Source of the DNA: Legionella birminghamensis
Lineage (GTDB): Bacteria > Pseudomonadota > Gammaproteobacteria > Legionellales > Legionellaceae
DNA: 64,000 nucleotides
Assembly (NCBI RefSeq): GCF_900452515.1
Contig: NZ_UGNW01000001.1
Coordinates: forward strand, 62,001 to 126,000
Direction: 5' to 3'
Below the pieces are notes generated by a model. The model had not been told where the DNA came from. It was given only the letters and a program-made list of their open reading frames with translations, and made no database searches. Shown here one piece after another: positions 24,270-62,184 of this stretch. Every line of letters begins with the position of its first letter. The first letter of the stretch is position 1. Both the position numbers and the translations under genes were made by a program.

Positions 24270-26066
24270 GTGATGACAGAAGAGAACAAGGCGAATCCAG
24301 ACAACAAATCATTGCAACCGGTTGAGCCCCCGGCCAATGGTCATTATGACGGGCAAATTTTCGATATCCTCCTGCACTCCTGGCAGGGACGTTTTACCGG
24401 ATGGTTATCTCCTGCGTCAGTTTCCCTCGCTTTTTTTGACTGGCTTTCCCATTTTAATATGGCACCCGCCAGACAGGTTTATATTGCTCGAAAAAATTGG
24501 CAGAATCTAATCAAGCTGCTTTTTTTTGCCGTCCACTGCCAGCACGGTGATCTGAGTAAAAACGAACATTGCATGCAGATTAAACTCGAAGACAAGCGCT
24601 TTCAGGCAGACTCCTGGAAAAATTTTCCATTTTCATTATATGTCCAGCAATTTTTAATGGTAGAGCAGGCTATCAATGAAATGACATGGGGAATCCGCGG
24701 CGCCACACCGCATCATTTACGGGTTGTTAATTTCGTTCAACGTCAGTTTCTCGATATTTTTTCACCCAGCAACTTTCCCTGGACAAATCCTGAGATTATT
24801 GAAAAGTCGCTGCAATCGAGAGGCCAGAATTTTTTAGCAGGGGCAGAAAATCTTATCGAGGATATATTTCGTGAGTGGCTAAACCTGCCGGCTAAGGAAA
24901 TGGAAAAATTCAAGGTAGGCGTCAATCTGGCAGTGACGCCTGGAAAAGTTGTTTTCAGAAATCGTTTAATTGAGCTTATTCAGTACGAAGCAACTACTAA
25001 AGAAGTCTATGCGGAGCCTGTATTTATAATACCTGCCTGGATTATGAAATATTATATTCTAGACCTCTCCACTCATAATTCGCTGGTGAAGTATCTGGTG
25101 GGCAAGGGACATACTGTTTTCATCATTTCCTGGAAAAATCCGGGTCATGAAGACCGGGATTTTGGTTTTGATACCTATATTAACCATGGCATTTTAGAAG
25201 GCTTGGATGCCATTCTGAGTATTGTTCCCACCCAGAAGGTTCATGCTGTAGGTTATTGTTTAGGCGGTACTCTGCTTAGCATGGTCGCCGCTGCCTTAGC
25301 AGGCCGTTCGGATGAGCGCATGAAAAGTGTGACCCTTTTTGCCGCCCAGGTTGACTTCAGGGAGCCTGGGGAATTGCAGTTGTTTATCGATCCTAGCCAG
25401 GTGACCTATCTGGAAGATATTATGTGGGAGCAGGGTTACTTAAAAGGGAATCAAATGACTGCTGCTTTCAGCATGCTCCGATCCAATGATCTGGTCTGGT
25501 CCCGAATCATTCACCATTATTTCCTGGGCACGCGTCGGCCATTAAATGATCTGATGGCCTGGGACCATGATACTACCCGCTTGCCCTATCGTTTTCATTC
25601 AGAATATCTGCATTACTTATTTTTAAATAATGATCTGGTCCAGGGGCGCTTTCGGGTGAACCACCGTCGGGTTGCCTTAAGTGATATTCGAGTGCCTATG
25701 TTTGTTGTCGGGACACAGACAGACCATATTTCCCCCTGGCGTTCTGTTTATAAGCTCCATTTGTTTACCGACACTGAAATTACTTTTGTCCTGACTAGCG
25801 GCGGCCACAATGCCGGAATTGTCAGTGAACCCGGGCATAAAAACCGCAGTTATCAGATACGCACGCGTAAACCGCATGATAAATACTTGACCTCCGACAG
25901 CTGGCTTGAGAAAGCGCCATCCTATAAGGGATCCTGGTGGCCTGTCTGGGAGGAATGGCTGGCCGCTCAATCAGGTGAAAAAGTGACGCCCCCACCTATG
26001 GGTAACCCGGAAAAGGGTTATCCCCCTCTGTGCAGTGCACCAGGAACCTATGTATTTCAAAAATAG
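24270..26066 (+). CDS. phaC: Poly-beta-hydroxyalkanoate synthase
   Basis: About 598 residues, close to class I synthases. It polymerises 3-hydroxyacyl-CoA into storage granules. An N-terminal PhaC domain (about 40-220) is followed by an alpha/beta-hydrolase domain with the lipase-like box AVGYCLGGTLL carrying the nucleophile Cys. VVGTQTDHISPW supplies the catalytic Asp region and LTSGGHNAGIV the catalytic His. IISWKNPGHEDRDFGFDTYI is a conserved family block. GTG (24270) and ATG (24273) are adjacent possible starts. Legionella species store polyhydroxybutyrate and usually carry several synthase genes; no phaA or phaB is nearby, so this may be one of several. Confidence 0.92.
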   Translation: MMTEENKANPDNKSLQPVEPPANGHYDGQIFDILLHSWQGRFTGWLSPASVSLAFFDWLSHFNMAPARQVYIARKNWQNLIKLLFFAVHCQHGDLSKNEHCMQIKLEDKRFQADSWKNFPFSLYVQQFLMVEQAINEMTWGIRGATPHHLRVVNFVQRQFLDIFSPSNFPWTNPEIIEKSLQSRGQNFLAGAENLIEDIFREWLNLPAKEMEKFKVGVNLAVTPGKVVFRNRLIELIQYEATTKEVYAEPVFIIPAWIMKYYILDLSTHNSLVKYLVGKGHTVFIISWKNPGHEDRDFGFDTYINHGILEGLDAILSIVPTQKVHAVGYCLGGTLLSMVAAALAGRSDERMKSVTLFAAQVDFREPGELQLFIDPSQVTYLEDIMWEQGYLKGNQMTAAFSMLRSNDLVWSRIIHHYFLGTRRPLNDLMAWDHDTTRLPYRFHSEYLHYLFLNNDLVQGRFRVNHRRVALSDIRVPMFVVGTQTDHISPWRSVYKLHLFTDTEITFVLTSGGHNAGIVSEPGHKNRSYQIRTRKPHDKYLTSDSWLEKAPSYKGSWWPVWEEWLAAQSGEKVTPPPMGNPEKGYPPLCSAPGTYVFQK

Positions 26067-26090: not shown

Positions 26091-26118
26091 TTACAAAATA
26101 AAGGGCTGCGTGTATAAT
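26091..26118 (+). promoter_or_regulatory. Promoter of helicase/ankyrin gene 1
   Basis: TTACAA (26091-26096), a 16-base spacer and TATAAT (26113-26118). The string TGTATAATAT is repeated upstream of the second gene copy (29971-29980), so the pair of genes probably share control. Confidence 0.5.
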
Positions 26119-26160
26119 ATCGAACCAGTTTTGTATTCATATTTAGTTTCAGGTTGACCC

Positions 26161-29100
26161 ATGCCCAAAAAGAAAACAGCGCCTCCTTCCCGTTGGGACA
26201 GGGTATTTATAGACCGAGCCGTATTAGAGGGTTATCGGAGAGGTCCAGAGCCTGTATATAAGCTAGCGGATGCGATGCTGTCAGGGGAGTCCGTGTCGTA
26301 TGAGGAGTTTAGTGATAAGGATAATTTGGGGAGTGCGCGCTTGAGTGGTGCAGACCGTGCGCTGATAGTGAATTTTGGCAGGACGGCGATGATAGCGGGT
26401 ATAGCGGAGCATCACGCCTATGCGCAATCGCCCTTATACCATTTACGGGATGGGGTGGCGAAATACCGTGCGAAGTATGGGGCTTCAATAGAGAAGCGGA
26501 TTGCGGAGGCAATAGCCGAGGAAGAGGCGGCAGCGGCGCGGGAGGCTGCGGGAGAAAGGGTGGCTGCGGTGCGTCGGGTTACCCCCTTAAGTTGCTATAA
26601 CCAGAATTTTATTCGCTTAAACAGTGAGCAGGCCAAAGTATTGCAGGTTAATTTACCGGCTTTGGTGAGCGGTCCGCCGGGCTCCGGCAAATCCTGTGTG
26701 GCGATATCGCTGATTCAGCAGGTACTCAGCCGCTTGTCGCAGGAGCCGGACGCGAGGATTTTGTATGTGACGCAATCGCCGGAGTTAATTGAGGCGATGG
26801 AGAAGATATGGGCTGAGATATCGCTGCCGGAGGCCTTAAAGAGGCGGGTGGAGTTTAAGACGTATGAGACGGTGGTACGGGAGCAGCAGTCCGCTTATTT
26901 TGTGGGTAAGACGCCAGCAAAAGAAGCCGATTTTGAGCAGTGGCTGAAGGACTATCTCGAGACAAAGAAAACGGCGCTAAAGCCTGCGGCAGCGGCAGCC
27001 GGCACTCGTGGTAAGAAAAACAGGCCGAGTGAAGCGGAATTAGAGCTGAATCGTTATTTTGAAGAGCGCAATGAGCTGTATCAGGAGTTTCGCCTTTTAT
27101 CAGGATATAGAGAGAGTGCGGACGATTATCTGAAGCTTGGTGAGGACGCGGGTTTATATCCCCCGGCAAGCAGGCGCTGGATTTTGGAAGCTTATGATTC
27201 CTATTTGAATTATCTAAAAGACAATCACAAGTATTCGCTGGATTTTCTGCCGGTTAATGAGCAGGGCAAGTATGATTTTGTTCTAGGCGATGAGGCACAG
27301 GACTTATCGGATCTGCAGTTGCGGTTTCTAATGCAGTTGGCGAAAGACGGCCAGGTGTGCTTTTGCATGGATACGCACCAGAGCCTTTTTGACTGTAAAT
27401 CCAAGCGTCCTTTTCTGCTTGGGATGAAAGGGATGAATCATATTGAGTTGCCGCATGCCTATCGTTGCCCTGAGAACGTGGTTCATTTTGCGAACAAGGT
27501 GATAAGCATTAAGAATACGGTGGTGGGAGGCGCTGCCGATAAATGGGAAAAGCCTGAGATAAAGATGTCAGCCGAGCAGAAAAATAAAGGCATTGTCCAC
27601 TGGTTAGAGCAGACGCCGGAAGAGTTGGACAAATTAAAAAAGCTGGCCAGGCAAAGTAATTTTGCGGTTATCACCCTGCCTGAATATATTGATGAGGCTC
27701 GCCGTAAATACGGGGAGGACGTGCTCATCTTCACGCCGGAGCAAATCAAGGGACTGGAATATGAAAATGTGGTGCTGTACCGCATGCTGGATAATGCGCA
27801 TTGCCGCGATGCCAGCCGCAAGTTAGGCCAGATAGGTCCTGACGGCAAAGTGCCTGTCCACCGCTCCCGCCGCGGCTGCAGCGATGAGCGCTTTGGCCCG
27901 GCGCTGAATAAGTTTTTTACCAGCAGTACGCGTGCCACGGGAGCTTTGATTATTGACCAGGATGAAGGCCATCCCTTAACCTGGCTGTGTAAAGCGTTAA
28001 AGGAGGGCATTAATACGCCCAAGTCTGCTTTTTTAAGGGAGCTATTATCCGAGCAGACTGCGGAAGAACAGTTGGCGGGTTGGGAGCTTGAAGTTTGCCG
28101 CTTGTATCGGGAGGGTAAAAAGGAATGGTCGCAGCATGCGTTTCACCGCTGGATTGAAGGCAAATTGCCCTACGCCGATTATGAAAGCTTTTTGCTGGCG
28201 CATGAGCTGATTAAAAAGGAAATGCCGCTGGCAGAAGAGAAACAGGATGCAGAAGTTGCTATAGAGATCAAGCAGCCAGCAGTCCAAACCCCGGAGCCTC
28301 AGGCAGCTTCCCCTGCGCCTGCCGAAGAAGAGGCAGCGGGCAGCAGGCGAAACCGCAGAAAGAAAGCGAAAAAAAGGGCGAGCCAGTCTGCCCAGAAAGC
28401 GCAGCCCTCAACAACAGCCAGTCTGTCGCTTAAACCGTCTGCCAATAGCGTCGATTTAAATCATTTCGTACCCTTAAGTAAAATAGGCCGATCCCATAAG
28501 TTTTGGCGTACAGCAGAATGCAGTGAGTTTACCTTTGTAAATCCTGAGTCTATAGAAAAACAGCCCTGCCCGGATGAAGCGCAGGTATCGAGCCCATCGA
28601 AACCTCCCGTAATGTCCAGTGTTTCTACGAATGTCCCTACAGCGGCCGAAAAAGAAAAAAGATTTCTCGATATTCTTTTTCGAAATTGCTCCGCGAAAGA
28701 CTTTGATAAAGTATTTTCCTATAAGCCGGAAACTGTTTTTAAATGGCTGGTTCTTACTGAAACGGGGAATGCAGACTGTTTTTTGACCCGGCTTAAAAAA
28801 GATCCGAATAAGTGGACGATCTTTCGCGCTTATTTATTAGAACACTCCAAAAATTTTAAACAATGGTTTCCCCTGCAAAAATTATTTGAAGCTGCACCGG
28901 ATTGCGCCAAAAGCCGTTTTGAAATATTGGCCCGCAAACCGGCAGGACTGGAGATCCTTGATTTAATTTTTGCTGAAATTATTGATGAAAATTTTTGTAC
29001 TGAACTAAATGCGCGCATATGCGAGGTATTTTTTGCCAAGCCGGGTCAATTTAACTGGGATAAGTTAACTGCAGAAAATCACTGCCTTATGCATTTAATA

Positions 29101-29610
29101 AGCAGCTCAGAAGGTCTAGTTCTTTTTCAGAAAATTGTGGAATGCCGTTTTACACCGGGTTTGAAAATACAGGATGAAGAGGGAAATACTTTTCTGCATT
29201 GGGCTATCAACAAGAAGCGAGCGGATTTAGTGCTCATCATTATGAATACCAGGGTAGCCGGTTTAAGGGGGGGAGACCGTACAGTAAAAGGGACAAATAT
29301 GGATATTATTTTTAATATCCAGAATAAGGATGGCCTGATCCCGCTCGCTTTAGCTAAAAAGGTTAAAGAAGCTATAAAAACTGAGGGGAACAATGACACT
29401 GAAATAGTAAGTCTTGAGGCCATCATTTCCTTGTTAGAAAAACAATCAATTATAGCAAGGGACAGATTAAGAGGCGGGCCAAAAACGATACCCTACCCTA
29501 ATCCCTATACTAGATCATCCAGTGTATTTTTTGCACCTCCAACTGGTTTAAGCTCGAAGGACGTAGAAGCGATGTTAGCGAATGAAATTGAAAAATTTGA
29601 GTTTCAATAA
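26161..29610 (+). CDS. SF1 helicase-like protein with ankyrin-like C-terminus, copy 1
   Basis: 1149 residues. About 130 leading residues precede a UvrD/SF1-type ATPase: Walker A SGPPGSGKSC near residue 170, Walker B with the DEAQD box near 376, FCMDTHQSLFD, HAYRCPENVVHFANK, and SSTRAT near 590 in the place of motif VI (usually TRAR/K). A Lys/Arg-rich, Ala-rich linker (about 700-760) leads to a variable C-terminus with one copy of a helical module (about 853-1030) that ends in an ankyrin-like repeat, EEGNTFLHWAINKKRADLVLIIM. The last residues (ANEIEKFEFQ) are Glu-rich. Residues 1 to about 697 are nearly identical to the gene at 30016. No signal peptide. It might act on nucleic acid in the host or the bacterium; function unknown. 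Confidence 0.75.
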   Translation: MPKKKTAPPSRWDRVFIDRAVLEGYRRGPEPVYKLADAMLSGESVSYEEFSDKDNLGSARLSGADRALIVNFGRTAMIAGIAEHHAYAQSPLYHLRDGVAKYRAKYGASIEKRIAEAIAEEEAAAAREAAGERVAAVRRVTPLSCYNQNFIRLNSEQAKVLQVNLPALVSGPPGSGKSCVAISLIQQVLSRLSQEPDARILYVTQSPELIEAMEKIWAEISLPEALKRRVEFKTYETVVREQQSAYFVGKTPAKEADFEQWLKDYLETKKTALKPAAAAAGTRGKKNRPSEAELELNRYFEERNELYQEFRLLSGYRESADDYLKLGEDAGLYPPASRRWILEAYDSYLNYLKDNHKYSLDFLPVNEQGKYDFVLGDEAQDLSDLQLRFLMQLAKDGQVCFCMDTHQSLFDCKSKRPFLLGMKGMNHIELPHAYRCPENVVHFANKVISIKNTVVGGAADKWEKPEIKMSAEQKNKGIVHWLEQTPEELDKLKKLARQSNFAVITLPEYIDEARRKYGEDVLIFTPEQIKGLEYENVVLYRMLDNAHCRDASRKLGQIGPDGKVPVHRSRRGCSDERFGPALNKFFTSSTRATGALIIDQDEGHPLTWLCKALKEGINTPKSAFLRELLSEQTAEEQLAGWELEVCRLYREGKKEWSQHAFHRWIEGKLPYADYESFLLAHELIKKEMPLAEEKQDAEVAIEIKQPAVQTPEPQAASPAPAEEEAAGSRRNRRKKAKKRASQSAQKAQPSTTASLSLKPSANSVDLNHFVPLSKIGRSHKFWRTAECSEFTFVNPESIEKQPCPDEAQVSSPSKPPVMSSVSTNVPTAAEKEKRFLDILFRNCSAKDFDKVFSYKPETVFKWLVLTETGNADCFLTRLKKDPNKWTIFRAYLLEHSKNFKQWFPLQKLFEAAPDCAKSRFEILARKPAGLEILDLIFAEIIDENFCTELNARICEVFFAKPGQFNWDKLTAENHCLMHLISSSEGLVLFQKIVECRFTPGLKIQDEEGNTFLHWAINKKRADLVLIIMNTRVAGLRGGDRTVKGTNMDIIFNIQNKDGLIPLALAKKVKEAIKTEGNNDTEIVSLEAIISLLEKQSIIARDRLRGGPKTIPYPNPYTRSSSVFFAPPTGLSSKDVEAMLANEIEKFEFQ

Positions 29611-29706
29611 GCGATTCCCTGCAGAATGATGGATTCCCTCCTGCCCGGCGATGCGCCTCCGAACTCCCGAGCGAAGACCCTTCGAATCCCCGCGCGAAGA
29701 CCCATC

Positions 29707-29858
29707 CGAATCCCCGCGGCTGCGACCGCGGGGCCCAATGAGTCTAATTCAGAGCCCCAATTTACTAAGCCGTTCATCTTTACTGTGGCAGGATTGTGGT
29801 TTTTCTGAGCACTTTTTTGAGCGACCATGGGCCCCGCGGTCGCAGCCGCGGGGATTCG
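29707..29858. repeat. Composite palindromic element, copy C (short, diverged core)
   Basis: 152 bases. The GC hairpin arms are intact, but the centre is about 40 bases shorter and aligns with the other copies only near the right arm (GATTGTGG..TTTTTCTGAGC). Partial arm units (CGAAGACCCTTCGAATCCCCG) are strung out to its left from about 29655. With the promoter at 29950 it fills the 405-base gap between the duplicated helicase genes; no gene is seen there. Confidence 0.78.
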
Positions 29859-29949
29859 AAGGGTCGATGCTGTGGGATTCGAAGGTCTGCGCGCGGGATC
29901 CATATGGGATGTGGTGACTAAACATCGAAAATTGCGACGGCTTCTTTGT

Positions 29950-29978
29950 TTGATTAAACGTAGCTCTGTATGTATAAT
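29950..29978 (+). promoter_or_regulatory. Promoter of helicase/ankyrin gene 2
   Basis: TTGATT (29950-29955), 17 bases, TATAAT (29973-29978), giving a leader of about 30 bases before the ATG at 30016. It shares TGTATAATAT with the promoter of copy 1, and CAGGTT.ACCCATGCC is common to both starts, so the duplication included at least part of the leader. Confidence 0.55.
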
Positions 29979-30015
29979 ATTCCGCCATTGCAGTCGGATT
30001 TATTCAGGTTAACCC

Positions 30016-33000
30016 ATGCCAAAAAAGAAAACAGCACCTTCTTCCCGTTGGGACAGGGTATTTATAGACCGAGCCGTATTAGAGGGTTATGGGAGAGGTC
30101 CAGAGCCTGTATATAAGCTAGCGGATGCGATGCTGTCAGGGGAGTCCGTGTCGTATGAGGAGTTTAGTGATAAGGATAATTTGGGGAGTGCGCGCTTGAG
30201 TGGTGCAGACCGTGCGCTGATAGTGAATTTTGGCAGGACGGCGATGATAGCGGGTATAGCGGAGCATCACGCCTATGCGCAATCGCCCTTATACCATTTA
30301 CGGGATGGGGTGGCGAAATACCGTGCGAAGTATGGGGCTTCGATAGAGAAGCGGATTGCGGAGGCAATAGCCGAGGAAGAGGCGGCAGCGGCGCGGGAGG
30401 CAGCGGGTGAAAGGGCGGCAGCGGTGCATCGGGTTACCCCCTTAAGTTGCTATAACCAGAATTTTATTCGCTTAAACAGTGAGCAGGCCAAAGTATTGCA
30501 GGTTAATTTACCGGCTTTGGTGAGCGGTCCGCCGGGCTCCGGCAAATCCTGTGTGGCGATATCGCTGATTCAGCAGGTACTCAGCCGCTTGTCGCAGGAG
30601 CCGGACGCGAGGATTTTGTATGTGACGCAATCGCCGGAGTTAATTGAGGCGATGGAGAAGATATGGGCTGAGATATCGCTGCCGGAGGCCTTAAAGAGGC
30701 GGGTGGAGTTTAAGACGTATGAAACGGTTGCACGGGAGCAGCAGTCCGCTTATTTTGTGGGTAAGACGCCAGCAAAAGAAGCGGATTTTGAGCAGTGGCT
30801 GAAGGGGTATCTTGATGCCAAGAAAACGGCGCTAAAGCCTGCGGCAGCGGCAGCCGGCACTCGTGGTAAGAAAAACAGGCCGAGTGAAGCGGAATTAGAG
30901 CTGAATCATTATTTTGAGGAGCGCAATGAGCTGTATCAGGAGTTTCGCCTTTTATCAGGATATAGAGAGAGTGCGGACGATTATCTGAAGCTTGGTGAGG
31001 ACGCGGGTTTATATCCCCCGGCAAGCAGGCGCTGGATTTTGGAAGCTTATGATTCCTATTTGAATTATCTAAAAGACAATCACAAGTATTCGCTGGATTT
31101 TCTGCCGGTTAATGAGCAGGGCAAGTATGATTTTGTTCTAGGCGATGAGGCACAGGACTTATCGGATCTGCAGTTGCGGTTTCTAATGCAGTTGGCGAAA
31201 GACGGCCAGGTGTGCTTTTGCATGGATACGCACCAGAGCCTTTTTGACTGTAAATCCAAGCGTCCTTTTCTGCTTGGGATGAAAGGGATGAATCATATTG
31301 AGTTGCCGCATGCCTATCGTTGCCCTGAGAACGTGGTTCATTTTGCGAACAAGGTGATAAGCATTAAGAATACGGTGGTGGGAGGCGCTGCCGATAAATG
31401 GGAAAAGCCTGAGATAAAGATGTCAGCCGAGCAGAAAAATAAAGGCATTGTCCACTGGTTAGAGCAGACGCCGGAAGAGTTGGACAAATTAAAAAAGCTG
31501 GCCAGGCAAAGTAATTTTGCGGTTATCACCCTGCCTGAATATATTGATGAGGCTCGCCGTAAATACGGGGAGGGCGTGCTCATCTTCACGCCGGAGCAAA
31601 TCAAGGGACTGGAATATGAAAATGTGGTGCTGTACCGCATGCTGGATAATGCGCATTGCCGTGATGCCAGCCGCAAGTTAGGCCAGATAGGTCCTGACGG
31701 CAAAGTGCCTGTCCACCGCTCCCGTCGCGGCTGCAGCGATGAGCGCTTTGGCCCGGCGCTGAATAAGTTTTTTACCAGCAGTACGCGTGCCACGGGAGCT
31801 TTGATTATTGACCAGGATGAAGGCCATCCCTTAACCTGGCTGTGTAAAGCGTTAAAGGAGGGCATTAATACGCCCAAGTCTGCTTTTTTAAGGGAGCTAT
31901 TATCCGAGCAGACTGCGGAAGAACAGTTGGCGGGTTGGGAGCTTGAAGTTTGCCGCTTGTATCGGGAGGGTAAAAAGGAATGGTCGCAGCATGCGTTTCA
32001 CCGCTGGATTGAAGGCAAATTGCCCTACGCCGATTATGAAAGCTTTTTGCTGGCGCATGAGCTGATTAAAAAGGAAATGCCGCTGGCAGAAGAGAAACAA
32101 GAGAAGGAAGCAACTCCAGAGATCGAACCGCCAGCAGGAGAAGCCACTGAGCCTCAGGCAGCTTTGCCTGAGCCAGCCAAAGAAGAGGCAGCGGGCAGCA
32201 GGCGAAACCGAAAAAAGAAAGCGAAGAGGAAGGCCAGCCAGTCTGCCCAGAAAGCGCAGCTCTCAATAACAGCCAGTCTGTCGCTTAAACCGCCACAAAC
32301 TATGGATCAGACAAGCCCTTTCCCATCGAGTAATGCCTTGGTTCGATCGCCGGCTACATTCTTTGCCAATAGAGGGGTTAAAAGAAACTTAGGCCTTCCT
32401 GGCACTGTAGCCGATTTAGAGGCAAGTCTGAATACAGTGAAACTAAGCAAAATCGCAACAAGCGGCGAATTAGTAAAAACCTGTGATGCCATAATTGCTC
32501 AGGGCACCGACCTGGAAAAGAAATGGGCCGAAATACAAAAAGAAAAAGAGCAAGCTAAAACTGCATTATTACCCGGCGATTTAAAAGTTCAGCGCTTTCT
32601 CAATGAATTATTCAATAATTTTTCCAAGCAATATTTGGATAAGATTTTCAAAAGAGTTCCCCCATACAAGCCCGAAACCATTTTAAAATGGTTCGTTCTT
32701 ACAGAGAACCAGGGCTATGATTGCTTCCTAAGCCGATTAAAATTCGATAAAGGAAATTTAAAACCGAATGAAGACAAGTGGTTGGCATTGCAGCACTATG
32801 AAGGTTTAAATAGCTATTTCTCTTTGCAAGAGCTAACTCGGACAGAACCTGCTTCTGGAAAAACTTATTTTGAAATCCTCTGCCGCAAACAATGCGGGCT
32901 TAATTTCCTTAATTCAATCTGGGCTTCCATGTCAATCCCGGAAACGGTGCACTCTGGCGCGCTTGCGCAGTTATGGACAACTTTTTATGCCGCCTCTTCT

Positions 33001-34464
33001 ACAAATGCATGGGATGATCTGGACGACAAAGAAAATTTATTAATTTATCTGATTAATTACCCCGGAGGCCTCGCTGTATTTGAAACACTTTTCAGTAGTT
33101 CCTTATTCGCAACACTACGCTGGATGGATAAAGAGAAAAATACTCTATTGCATTGGGCAGTTAGTGATCAACGGAAAGATCTGGTTAAAAGTATCATGAG
33201 GGCGAGGGCAGCGGCTTTAGGAGGCGGATACCTGAAGCCGGAATTTGATGTGCTGGGTATCAAAAACAGCCAGAACTTAACCGCGTTTGAACTAGCGAAA
33301 AAGAATAATTCGAGCAAAATAATCGATGCTTTGAATCCTTCCAACTATGAGAAATCCTCAGGCACTAATACGCCCCCATTTCATGATGAAGAGTATATAA
33401 CAGTGGCCATACAGGAGATAGCAAAGACTAGAGGTTCAATCCAGATTCCTGCGATTAAGAAAATTGTAAATGAGACAAATGCGCTTCGGCATGATCAGAA
33501 AGTATGCCGGGATAAGTTATCATTGAACCCTCGAAATAAGGAATTGAGGAAAAAACTAAAACTTGTTGAAACAGTTATAGACGAGAGAATGAGCCAGCAT
33601 AACGAGTTGGAAAGGGAAATCAGAGTTAATGCCTTATTCCAATTAACGAAAGCGAATCTTGGCTCAAAAGCGATGTATGAACAACTCGACCTGCTAGTGG
33701 TTGGCACACCTCCTGATTTATTGTTCACCTGTCTGACTGCTAGTATCACCCCCAAGCTTCCTCCGTTACTCTATTGTCTGTTTACTACCAGTCTTTGGTC
33801 TGACGACAGAGAAGGCCCTTGGGGATCCTTTCTTAAATATATGGAAGATAATCCAGTACTGGTTAACTTTAATTTTTCTTTAAAGCAATTATTCAAAGTA
33901 GACAAAAACAGCGTTAAAAGCCGCTTTGAAACACTGGTCCGCAGCAGGGAAGGCCTTGTTTTCCTGCACGCTATTTTCAAAATGCTGTCTATATCAGACA
34001 CAGTAGGAGAAGAGTTACACGCCGGCATTATCACTCATTTATACCCTGATATTACAGCCAGACCGTGGGGTGACTTGAGCGAAGCGGATACCTTGCTCAT
34101 TTATTTGATAAATCGCAGTGAAGGGCGGGAAATCCTTGCAAAATTTCCTCCGAATATGTTTTTCAATATGATTGCGCAACAGGATGCACAGTGGAACAGT
34201 TTTCTGCACTGGGCGGTTATCAGTCAGCGCGCTGATTTAATATCAATGGTGCTCAAACTTGAGCAGCGGCTTTCCGATAAAACCGCCTTGCCACGGTATC
34301 TGGGCTTAAAAAATGAAGCGGGTCAGACTGCCCTTGATATCGCTAAAGAAAATAATTTTAAGCTAGGGATTGATTTACTGAGCGTAAAGGCGAATGAGAT
34401 TTCGAAACACAAAGCCGCTGAAACATCCTTTGAGAATTTGCCTGTTTCTGTAAACCCCTTCTAG
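30016..34464 (+). CDS. SF1 helicase-like protein with ankyrin-like C-terminus, copy 2
   Basis: 1482 residues. The first 697 residues repeat copy 1 with only about ten substitutions (for example RV to RA and KDYLETKK to KGYLDAKK), including every ATPase motif. After codon ~697 the two genes part. Copy 2 has a different linker and two units of the helical module: unit 1 about 883-1065 ending KEKNTLLHWAVSDQRKDLV, unit 2 about 1230-1420 ending QWNSFLHWAVISQRADLI. Each is followed by a short block with LGLKNEAGQTALDIAK-type ankyrin character. A coiled, charged stretch (about 1130-1210) separates them. No signal peptide or membrane segment. Probably a translocated or intracellular regulatory protein; the role is unknown. 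Confidence 0.75.
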   Translation: MPKKKTAPSSRWDRVFIDRAVLEGYGRGPEPVYKLADAMLSGESVSYEEFSDKDNLGSARLSGADRALIVNFGRTAMIAGIAEHHAYAQSPLYHLRDGVAKYRAKYGASIEKRIAEAIAEEEAAAAREAAGERAAAVHRVTPLSCYNQNFIRLNSEQAKVLQVNLPALVSGPPGSGKSCVAISLIQQVLSRLSQEPDARILYVTQSPELIEAMEKIWAEISLPEALKRRVEFKTYETVAREQQSAYFVGKTPAKEADFEQWLKGYLDAKKTALKPAAAAAGTRGKKNRPSEAELELNHYFEERNELYQEFRLLSGYRESADDYLKLGEDAGLYPPASRRWILEAYDSYLNYLKDNHKYSLDFLPVNEQGKYDFVLGDEAQDLSDLQLRFLMQLAKDGQVCFCMDTHQSLFDCKSKRPFLLGMKGMNHIELPHAYRCPENVVHFANKVISIKNTVVGGAADKWEKPEIKMSAEQKNKGIVHWLEQTPEELDKLKKLARQSNFAVITLPEYIDEARRKYGEGVLIFTPEQIKGLEYENVVLYRMLDNAHCRDASRKLGQIGPDGKVPVHRSRRGCSDERFGPALNKFFTSSTRATGALIIDQDEGHPLTWLCKALKEGINTPKSAFLRELLSEQTAEEQLAGWELEVCRLYREGKKEWSQHAFHRWIEGKLPYADYESFLLAHELIKKEMPLAEEKQEKEATPEIEPPAGEATEPQAALPEPAKEEAAGSRRNRKKKAKRKASQSAQKAQLSITASLSLKPPQTMDQTSPFPSSNALVRSPATFFANRGVKRNLGLPGTVADLEASLNTVKLSKIATSGELVKTCDAIIAQGTDLEKKWAEIQKEKEQAKTALLPGDLKVQRFLNELFNNFSKQYLDKIFKRVPPYKPETILKWFVLTENQGYDCFLSRLKFDKGNLKPNEDKWLALQHYEGLNSYFSLQELTRTEPASGKTYFEILCRKQCGLNFLNSIWASMSIPETVHSGALAQLWTTFYAASSTNAWDDLDDKENLLIYLINYPGGLAVFETLFSSSLFATLRWMDKEKNTLLHWAVSDQRKDLVKSIMRARAAALGGGYLKPEFDVLGIKNSQNLTAFELAKKNNSSKIIDALNPSNYEKSSGTNTPPFHDEEYITVAIQEIAKTRGSIQIPAIKKIVNETNALRHDQKVCRDKLSLNPRNKELRKKLKLVETVIDERMSQHNELEREIRVNALFQLTKANLGSKAMYEQLDLLVVGTPPDLLFTCLTASITPKLPPLLYCLFTTSLWSDDREGPWGSFLKYMEDNPVLVNFNFSLKQLFKVDKNSVKSRFETLVRSREGLVFLHAIFKMLSISDTVGEELHAGIITHLYPDITARPWGDLSEADTLLIYLINRSEGREILAKFPPNMFFNMIAQQDAQWNSFLHWAVISQRADLISMVLKLEQRLSDKTALPRYLGLKNEAGQTALDIAKENNFKLGIDLLSVKANEISKHKAAETSFENLPVSVNPF

Positions 34465-35463: not shown

Positions 35464-35489
35464 GTTGTTTATCCATTCTTGGGCAAGGG

Positions 35490-35609
35490 CACTCGAGTTA
35501 CTGTAGCGAAGCCCGCTCGAGATACTGTAGCGAAGCCCACTCGAGATACTGTGGCGAAGCCCACTCGAGATACTGTGGCGAAGCCCACTCGAGATACTGT
35601 GGCGAAGCC
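35490..35609. repeat. Tandem array, five 24-base units
   Basis: Five head-to-tail units of 24 bases (CACTCGAGATACTGTGGCGAAGCC type); the last three are identical, the first two have one to three changes. The unit resembles the start of a palindromic arm (CTCGAATTCCCGCGGCGAAGACC), and a real arm follows directly at 35610. It opens the 480-base gap between the orphan gene and cbpM. Confidence 0.85.
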
Positions 35610-35676
35610 CACTCGAATTCCCGCGGCGAAGACCGCGGGACCCACAACCTGGCTCATTCCTGGCCCCGCGGTCGCC

Positions 35677-35920
35677 CATAGCTATCTAAACAAAGGTTTT
35701 TCCCGCTCCGAATCCCCGCGGCTGCGACCGCGGGGTCCACACGAGGCCTATTTAGAATATTGGTTTTGCTAATTTAGGATAATGTTTGAAAGACTTGTTC
35801 CTCATTGCTTTTTGCTATTTACGGCAACATTGGATTCTTCTGAAGAGCATGTTCGGCACCAGACATGGGCCCCGCGGTCGCAGCCGCGGGGATTCGACTG
35901 AATTGGTGTAGATAGCGATG
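35677..35920. repeat. Composite palindromic element, copy D
   Basis: Core 35709-35896 (188 bases), same orientation and centre as copies A and B. Outer repeats on both sides: CATAGCTATCTAAACAAAGG from 35677 and GGTGTAGATAGCGATG ending at 35920. A separate arm hairpin (CCCGCGGCGAAGACCGCGGG) lies at about 35617-35640 and a half arm at 35662-35675. No gene is seen between 35464 and 35943. Confidence 0.87.
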
Positions 35921-61227: not shown

Positions 61228-62184
61228 ATGTTAACCCGTGTTATCTCCTTGATTTGCATTTTATTTCTCTTATCAGCCTGCAGGCACTCGGCTGTTAACC
61301 CGGCAGGCGATTTGCCTGTACCCGTTAATAAAACACAGCAAACCCGATCCTTGTCATCGTTTAACCATGTATCAGTTAGCGGCCGCCTGAATGTGGTACT
61401 GCATACGGGTTATTCCAAGCCACAGATTATTTTACATGGCGATCCACGTGATCTGGCTCAGGTCAGTACCCGGGTTCAGAATTATACCCTGGTTGTCAAC
61501 CTGGGCAGCGGCTACCCGCGCTATGGCAGCGTCACAGTGGATATCCGCGGGCGCTTTCTTAATACCTTCCGCTATGAAGGGGCGGGAATTGTCACGGGTC
61601 CCAGGCTAAATTCGGGATTGCTTGATCTTTATATTGAGAATGAGGGACGCACTGTATTAGGCGGCCATATCAACGTAGGCGTGCTGGAAGTGAAGGGGAA
61701 TGGATATACCGAAATCAATGGCGTACAAGCCCGCAACCTGCATTTGCGTATGTCAGGAAAGCCCAGAGTTAAATTAGCCGGTATAGAGCGTATTAATACC
61801 CTGGATCTGGAGGGTGACGGCGCCTTAAGCATGTATTGGGTGAAAAGTGACACCCTGACCATTCGGGCAGGCGGAAATGCCTTTATTCAGTTGGGCGGCG
61901 TAGCGAACAAAATTGATGTTTGCCTGCATGATAAAGCCCGTTTCAATGGCCGTTACCTGCGTGCCAAAAGAGCCTTTGTTAAAACGTATGAGAATTCGGT
62001 CGCTGAATTAAGTGTGGTGAACCGCCAGCATACATTGGCCAGTGATGCGAGTAATATTTATTTCTACAATATTCCGGAAATGAAAACGGATTTCATGGCC
62101 TTTGATGGCTCTGTTCTGGATATGCGGGATCTGAATGATTTTTTCGTTCAGGAATATGACCGGTATAATAAGCAAATCCAGTAA
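61228..62184 (+). CDS. GIN-domain (DUF2807-like) lipoprotein
   Basis: 318 residues from the ATG at 61228 (MLTRVISLI). Lipobox LSAC gives a lipidated N-terminus. The body is a repeating beta-strand pattern (FNHVSVSGRLNVVLHTGYSKPQIILHGD, LDLYIENEGRTVLGG, LHLRMSGKPRVKLAG) like the head GIN domain of putative autotransporter-associated lipoproteins. A right-handed beta-helix surface protein is likely. Function unknown. A rearranged palindromic element starts 30 bases after its stop. Confidence 0.8.
   Translation: MLTRVISLICILFLLSACRHSAVNPAGDLPVPVNKTQQTRSLSSFNHVSVSGRLNVVLHTGYSKPQIILHGDPRDLAQVSTRVQNYTLVVNLGSGYPRYGSVTVDIRGRFLNTFRYEGAGIVTGPRLNSGLLDLYIENEGRTVLGGHINVGVLEVKGNGYTEINGVQARNLHLRMSGKPRVKLAGIERINTLDLEGDGALSMYWVKSDTLTIRAGGNAFIQLGGVANKIDVCLHDKARFNGRYLRAKRAFVKTYENSVAELSVVNRQHTLASDASNIYFYNIPEMKTDFMAFDGSVLDMRDLNDFFVQEYDRYNKQIQ

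Follow-up and report, generated by a model that had tools for sequence, protein, structure and literature searches.

Probable within-genome conversion of SF1 ATPase-like heads, with independently descending tails, in a gene family of the Legionellaceae

Introduction

Rhs and contact-dependent growth inhibition (CDI) polymorphic toxins join a constant N-terminal part to a variable C-terminal part. Concerted evolution by gene conversion has been described in bacterial gene families, with paralogues clustering by genome rather than by orthology (an excerpt of PMC4209131, citing Santoyo and Romero 2005). Here, we analysed a 64,000-nucleotide stretch of Legionella birminghamensis DNA (the window; positions 62,001 to 126,000 of contig NZ_UGNW01000001.1) in which two adjacent genes, A and B, encode an almost identical Superfamily 1 (SF1) ATPase-like head and diverged tails. 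As in the families covered by that excerpt, the paralogues cluster by genome, but here in the head half only, the tails of the same genes being independent. We conclude from sequence comparisons that the heads have very probably been converted within genomes whilst the tails stay independent. Partial conversion is known in kind; what is new is the family, its spread, a reach of more than 1 Mb and the recurrent domain border. In a literature search that took in few subscription papers and no preprints, we recognized none on this family or on head-only conversion in Legionella effectors.

The locus can be set beside several other described systems. It shares the constant front and variable back of Rhs/CDI toxins, but here the tails would descend by lineage and the heads would be overwritten; no Rhs or PAAR model was among the window-protein matches. 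The Dot/Icm ankyrin effectors AnkY/LegA9 and AnkH/LegA3 are alike in their ankyrin-type tails, but family scores fall far under the equivalog cut-offs and the AnkY match of gene B spans the tail end only. Schlafen group 3 helicases (SLFN11, SLFN14) differ in that the N-terminus here is probably ParE/RelE-like rather than Schlafen. HelD is also distant, with A and B scoring 35.6 and 37.2 bits, far below the NCBIfam equivalog cut-off of 419. Plasmid-borne relatives of about 900 aa have the same SF1 head and ankyrin stretch (in the two scanned) and differ by a short tail.

The window pair

The genome (G000) is assembled in two contigs, and the window comes from one of 3.59 Mb. In the list of open reading frames (ORFs), A and B are consecutive and both on the plus strand. 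The genome holds three further family members: C (L016), D (L017) and E (L018, whose frame is interrupted and which was kept as pieces). The genes and their near-identical tracts, which we call homogenized, are:

26161..29610, plus strand: gene A, the short-tail copy, 1149 aa; position and tail make L029:10097-13483 and L030:10827-14204 its orthologues
30016..34464, plus strand: gene B, the long-tail copy, 1482 aa; at the same place as L029:5282-9853, whose long tail is 44% identical
26148..28244, plus strand: homogenized head tract of gene A, running from 13 bases before the start codon as far as nucleotide 2084; synonymous divergence (dS) 0.032 against gene B
30003..32099, plus strand: homogenized head tract of gene B, from a two-state scan of the aligned DNA

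The heads are identical at 680 of 690 residues and differ at 25 nucleotides within the first 2084. The two-state scan placed a like tract of 2097 bp at 98.76% identity, ending at codon 694-695, 53 residues past W641; in the 60 bases flanking it on each side, identity drops to 60% and 68%. An earlier note, made from the letters of this DNA, had described near-identical heads with about ten residue changes and an abrupt stop in the linker, and had proposed aligning the genes to place the breakpoint; the alignment bears this description out.

The tails are about 455 aa (A) and about 788 aa (B) long, and 180 of 431 aligned residues match (42%, a figure that takes in the still partly alike linker). 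The tail module of A shares 39% identity with module 1 of B and about 29% with a second stretch of B. Aligned with each other, modules 1 and 2 of B are 31% identical, but a self-BLAST of this tail found no internal repeat, so that a duplication within it is something we only infer. As judged from these alignments, the A and B tails are old, diverged homologues and not unrelated sequences; the note was right that they diverge. Its description of both tails as ankyrin-bearing holds weakly for B, with sub-threshold matches to Ank_2 (22.2 bits, cut-off 27.3) and Ank_3 (20.4 bits, cut-off 22.3), and not for A, where the profile scan gave no ankyrin match. The predicted structure of the tail module had a mean predicted local distance difference test score (pLDDT) of 43.6 and was not used.

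Two related species (G005 and G006) have an A/B-type pair at the corresponding locus, the short-tail copy preceding the long-tail one. Flanking genes are in conserved order across the three genomes (68-94% protein identity), and the flank upstream of A shares 70-83% identity with the one that precedes the G005 short copy. Within genomes, the heads are 99% (G000), 99% (G005) and, in two pieces, 97% and 100% (G006) identical; between genomes, head identity is 57% for G000 versus G005 and 89-93% for G005 versus G006. Tail identity is 44% between the long copies of G000 and G005, 39% between their short copies, and 32% between the short and long copies of G005. The G006 long copy (L030:5263-9828) has an interrupted frame, as has paralogue E, and was left in pieces.

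Trees of this window set, built with the G006 long-copy head left out, conflict. The head tree joined A with B (support 100/100) and the two G005 heads with each other (99/99). In the tail tree, A and the short-tail copies of G005 and G006 form one group (100/100), and B falls with the long tails and the tails of D. Approximately unbiased (AU) tests rejected the A and B tails as a single clade (p 5.5e-124) and rejected heads forced into positional groups (p 8.5e-70 and 5.2e-72). Head trees thus follow the genome and tail trees follow descent; by the pattern that marks concerted evolution, in which paralogues cluster by genome against orthology, the heads qualify and the tails do not. Because of the synteny and the conflicting trees, we reject a recent duplication for the window pair. 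Where the earlier note had left recent duplication or gene conversion as alternatives for the likeness of the heads, the synteny and conflicting trees of the window pair, and the tail trees of the two further sets below, speak for conversion and reject duplication.

Recurrence in other genomes

A second tandem array, with three copies in G010 and two in G008, shows the same head/tail split in tail trees. The G008 head segments show no difference across 855 bases, and support for joining the G010 heads is 88/86, whilst the G008_1 tail pairs with G010_2, and the G008_2 tail with G010_3 and G007. AU tests rejected clustering of the G010 and G008 tails by genome (p 2e-4 and 4e-9). A third, dispersed set comes from G119, in which two copies lie at 0.197 and 1.559 Mb, 1.36 Mb apart. 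Over 600 residues, their heads show no difference (100% identity). The tails share 32% with each other, less than the first shares with a G125 gene (67%) or the second with a G124 gene (48%), and grouping of the two tails was rejected (p 5e-107). The earlier note had suggested that the family diversifies by swapping tails. The trees do not support this: in these sets each tail follows its own lineage and the head is the part that appears to be overwritten.

Homogenized pairs were present in 8 of the 21 genomes with at least two fetched members, in one case (G111) seen in 377-aa contig-end fragments only; multi-copy genomes and best matches had been picked for fetching, and the 8/21 is accordingly a biased frequency.

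The two G008 copies (L035), whose heads are otherwise identical, are both interrupted in frame at the corresponding position; this may reflect conversion spreading disabling changes, sequencing error or a programmed shift. In G007 (L036), both open frames have runs of N close to their starts, the kind of gap to be expected if identical heads mislead the assembler; there is one nearly whole gene and a second tail that lacks an in-frame head.

Silent sites, tract ends and GC

Within-genome head dS was 0.032 (A/B), 0.013 (G005), 0.000 (G130), 0.005 (G119), 0.024-0.045 (G010) and 0.000 (G008); the dS and tract scans cover these pairs and omit C/E and the G006 within-genome pairs. For the same pairs, tail dS was 1.7-2.8 or not calculable (saturated). 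Between G000 and G005, head dS was 1.68 and 1.67, the former for A against the G005 short-copy head, and flanking-gene dS was 1.7-3.6 or not calculable. Given near-zero head dS within genomes and high head dS between them, selection at the protein level is not the cause of head identity.

Like tracts measured 1.5 to 2.2 kb in all eight scanned pairs (that of G008 being measured from inside the head owing to the frame break) and ended past the SF1 core, in or near the linker. In two comparisons involving G010 copy 1, the tract begins 30 bases within the ORF.

GC at third codon positions (GC3), taken as head minus tail, averaged +14.5 in homogenized genes (positive in 13/13) and +3.8 in the others (positive in 32/46), in a comparison that omits members under 1000 aa (thus G008) and three ORFs lacking a whole head. 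The p of 1.6e-4 for this contrast sets seven lineage means against 46 single, non-independent genes, which include high-value close relatives of the homogenized genes (G003, G007, G124, G125). A step in fourfold-site GC was located near the tract end, and G119 supplies an internal control, its homogenized heads having 53% GC at fourfold sites and a non-homogenized paralogue 34%. Recombination is reported to be linked to GC in bacteria (PMC4450053), and the raised silent-site GC of the heads fits what GC-biased gene conversion predicts. Taking the within-genome head trees, the near-zero head dS and the raised GC together, we read the heads as homogenized by gene conversion and the tails as diverging.

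Domains of head and tail

The domains are placed as follows.

26161..26490, plus strand: probable ParE/RelE/YoeB-like N-terminal domain of gene A, residues about 1-110, with E48, R66, H85 and Y87
30016..30345, plus strand: the same probable ParE/RelE/YoeB-like domain in gene B, on the basis that the A and B heads differ at 10/690 residues
26584..28035, plus strand: SF1 (UvrD/HelD/Schlafen-like) ATPase core of gene A, residues about 142-625
30439..31890, plus strand: SF1 ATPase core of gene B (PF00580, E=2.3e-7)
28245..28722, plus strand: linker of gene A, charged and of low complexity, together with the first part of its tail; the homogenized tract stops where the linker begins
28723..29445, plus strand: tail module of gene A (single copy), 39% identical to module 1 of B
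32548..33345, plus strand: first tail module of gene B (module 1), which matches ankyrin below threshold
33712..34416, plus strand: tail module 2 of gene B, 31% identical to module 1, with weak similarity to the end of AnkY/LegA9 (22.3 bits, cut-off 600)

The head is almost certainly an SF1 ATPase, to judge from its motifs. Heads of the family carry the Walker A, DExxD/Q, motif IV R, motif V KG and motif VI R that mark SF1/UvrD-like proteins, and an SF1 core is visible in the predicted fold. Residues G171, G174-K177, E378, R435, K530-G531 and R591 are invariant in 24/24 heads, and D377 is present in 23/24. Motif VI had been read in the earlier note as odd, and its activity as possibly unusual; this falls away, R591 being invariant in all 24 heads and position 593 varying freely. 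The Schlafen group 3 model PF09848 gave 22.3 and 20.6 bits with the window copies (cut-off 24) and matched 49 of 54 members at E<=0.01.

The N-terminal domain, overlooked in the earlier note, probably has a ParE/RelE fold. A profile of this domain from 19 relatives matched a YoeB chain weakly (E=0.011), and PF24732 was found in 9/19 relatives at E up to 5 (best 2.3e-5). R66, H85 and Y87 are invariant in 24/24 heads and position 48 is E or D in 23/24, positions that we take to correspond to the catalytic residues of YoeB. Against this assignment stand the nine pieces scanned singly with PF24732, of which four matched at E<=1 and only L099 reached the cut-off (24.4), and the N-terminal part of the predicted model, where pLDDT is under 50. 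The window copy, scanned alone, gave no match to PF24732.

Spread of the family

Related heads with other tails occur across the Legionellaceae, as found in a survey of other genomes of the kind that the earlier note had recommended: 74 of 143 genomes match the P0001 query at E<=0.001 and 78 of 143 match the head alignment at E<=1e-10. In a class-wide draw, 19/369 genomes matched, 16 of them outside the family, and 11 of these outsiders have open frames of 897-1054 codons. Ank_2 was matched at E<=0.01 in 23 of the 54 members scanned. Amongst three outside-family proteins, L105 and L106 have an ankyrin stretch and L103 (778 aa) has none.

The relatives of about 900 aa lie on plasmids at 139 places in 137 records, plasmid proteins of Methylosinus trichosporium OB3b and Thermus aquaticus being among those listed. 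Those of Piscirickettsia and Polymorphobacter combine an SF1 head with an ankyrin stretch and adjoin recombinase or transposase genes. Shigella and some E. coli plasmids encode a protein about 38.5% identical across 98-99% of the 897-aa relative, which is annotated as UvrD-helicase, ankyrin or hypothetical protein. A distant branch lies between two members in G074 (L050:6145-10851), and in the parts that BLAST could align its heads share about 25% identity with A; the same branch occurs elsewhere in G005 and G006 (L041/L042). Viral origin was considered and set aside: 47 viral contig matches for 538 candidate stretches were mostly short and fell around SF1 motif II, and the 897-aa relative turned up in no phage record.

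The effector question

We lean towards the members being Dot/Icm-translocated effectors, a reading favoured, at the level of sequence, because of DotA, the polar, FF-bearing C-terminal ends and the AnkH/AnkY tail matches. In a search confined to this one Dot/Icm gene, TIGR04346 (DotA/TraY) scored over its cut-off in the window genome and in 0/14 control genomes. The C-terminal 35 residues are richer in S/T/N/Q (10.6 versus 7.3) and poorer in hydrophobics (11.6 versus 15.2) than those of control ORFs, and an FF motif occurs there in 24/62 members versus 12/120 control ORFs, in a comparison whose rows are related, include some pieces and involve no trained predictor. One G119 tail matched AnkH at 61.6 bits and AnkY at 56.7 bits (equivalog cut-offs 600); such sub-cut-off matches are what shared ankyrins would give. 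The tail is a putative target selector, a plausible role for which we rate the chances as evenly balanced.

Mechanism and alternatives

A and B are members of a family that runs through the Legionellaceae, its proteins made up of an N-terminal domain, an SF1 ATPase, a linker and a tail. On the sequence evidence, the heads of some copies are very probably overwritten from one another within a genome, by homologous recombination where the copies are still alike, from the region of the start codon to the linker. The tails are too diverged to convert, and each keeps to the descent of its locus. Both tandem and distant copies take part, and the homogenized heads have the raised silent-site GC that GC-biased conversion predicts. 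The head could act as a nucleic-acid motor with a possible RNase-like domain, and the proteins may be sent out by Dot/Icm, the ankyrin-type tail steering the head to different host partners; conversion would then spread a working head through the set and leave tail specificity untouched. This account as a whole (conversion, effector, motor head and targeting tail) is likely to be the best explanation.

Several observations weigh against it. The AU groups were chosen after the identities were known. For the window set, the tail tree flags A and B as long-branched, and short tails occupy fewer than half of its columns; B does not form a group with only the long tails of G005 and G006, those tails being nearer to the tails of D; and head identity is higher between A/B and D (61-63%) than between A/B and the syntenic G005 copies (57%). 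The AU tests in the G010/G008 and G119 sets took in tails only, the synteny evidence covering the window set alone. G130 has one copy at 1.056 Mb on the plus strand and another at 2.495 Mb on the minus strand; their heads are identical, and no orthologues were available for comparison. No homogenized pair was found in 13 of the 21 genomes with at least two fetched members, where head identities in 60-residue windows run from about 15 to 90%. Finally, the GC signal is not exclusive to homogenized heads, because non-homogenized D (fourfold-site GC 60.9 in the head versus 47.8) and its G005 counterpart (55.0 versus 39.7) are also GC-rich.

If each lineage had duplicated its gene independently and recently, with fast divergence or replacement of the tail afterwards, near-identical heads would also result, and the G130 pair could have arisen so. 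For the window pair this is refuted by gene order, flanks, the 70-83% identical upstream flank and the conflicting trees, and for the G010/G008 and G119 sets it is strongly opposed by the tail trees and AU rejections, which makes it very improbable overall. An assembly artefact, with a single 2.1 kb head placed twice, would be in keeping with some fragmented relatives that break inside heads (contigs C37 and C47 of G111; the N runs in G007). Given a two-contig window genome with 25 differences between its heads, and the recurrence of the pattern in the one- or two-contig genomes G005, G008, G010, G119 and G130, we give this next to no weight. Purifying selection alone would account for conserved catalytic motifs, but not for a within-genome head dS of 0-0.045 against 1.68 for A versus the G005 short-copy head, and its probability is negligible. 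A family of mobile-element or defence type (toxin-like domain, helicase and ankyrins), expanded in the Legionellaceae and not made up of effectors, is an unlikely but appreciable alternative: the shorter relatives beside transposase and recombinase genes on Piscirickettsia and Polymorphobacter plasmids, and weak matches to the PADLOC helicase models GajB, AbiO and Nhi, speak for it. The best PADLOC match among five proteins is, however, 46.5 bits and reflects generic SF1 similarity, no phage record matches the 897-aa relative, and polar, hydrophobic-poor C-terminal ends in a genome with DotA point towards effectors.

Within gene conversion, the identity of the heads may be neutral or selected. 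As a neutral by-product, recombination would act wherever copies stay similar, the tails having drifted first, and head identity would need no selection and would serve no function in itself; we give this an even chance. Tract ends coincide with loss of similarity, no upstream border motif is common across arrays (by eye), and tail dN/dS between related species is about 0.17-0.43, i.e. purifying selection. On the other side, conversion has continued in each lineage though synonymous sites in the G000/G005 heads and flanks are near saturation, and it would have occurred, at distances of up to 1.36 Mb, in each of the three sets for which orthologues exist, which is still compatible with neutrality. 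That selection and not a by-product lies behind head identity we rate at somewhat less than even. A selected constant-/variable-region effector design, in which one head acting on nucleic acid (a toxin-fold domain and an SF1 motor) is broadcast by ectopic conversion, to tandem as well as megabase-distant copies, and each locus has its own promoter and faster-evolving targeting tail, is proposed tentatively; if true, improvements of the catalytic head would reach other copies with tail specificity kept. We also considered a site-specific head cassette and rejected it, the upstream borders having no common motif across arrays (by eye) and sharing a -10 box only within the window's clade; homology-limited conversion is preferred as it is simpler and no border motif is common.

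Conversion of the heads would make this a natural bacterial case of one gene evolving in two modes, the head in concert and the tail by descent; the boundary between the two is sharp and falls at a domain linker. The silent-site GC signal could be useful for studying biased conversion. A large unnamed family, with a head that probably joins a toxin fold to an SF1 motor, is brought out. For such genes, whole-gene comparison blends two histories, and assemblies can break in the identical heads.

Other features of the window

An extended -10-like site precedes each gene:

26111..26118, plus strand: TG-TATAAT extended -10-like site upstream of A, found by sequence, in a flank resembling that of the short-tail copies of G005 and G006
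29971..29978, plus strand: TG-TATAAT extended -10-like site upstream of B, found by sequence

The upstream neighbour at 24270-26066, which we take, on our own reading and with no family search behind it, to resemble polyhydroxyalkanoate synthase, is 85-86% identical in G005 and G006. A GC-rich 22-base palindrome, similar to repetitive extragenic palindromic (REP) elements, occurs in pairs between A and B (29712-29733 and 29832-29853) and past the gene after B (35714-35735 and 35870-35891). At one mismatch or fewer, it has 98 forward and 88 reverse matches in the genome (reversed control, 0). An intergenic 24-base tandem repeat lies at 35485-35652 and was scored as six overlapping 48-base copies.

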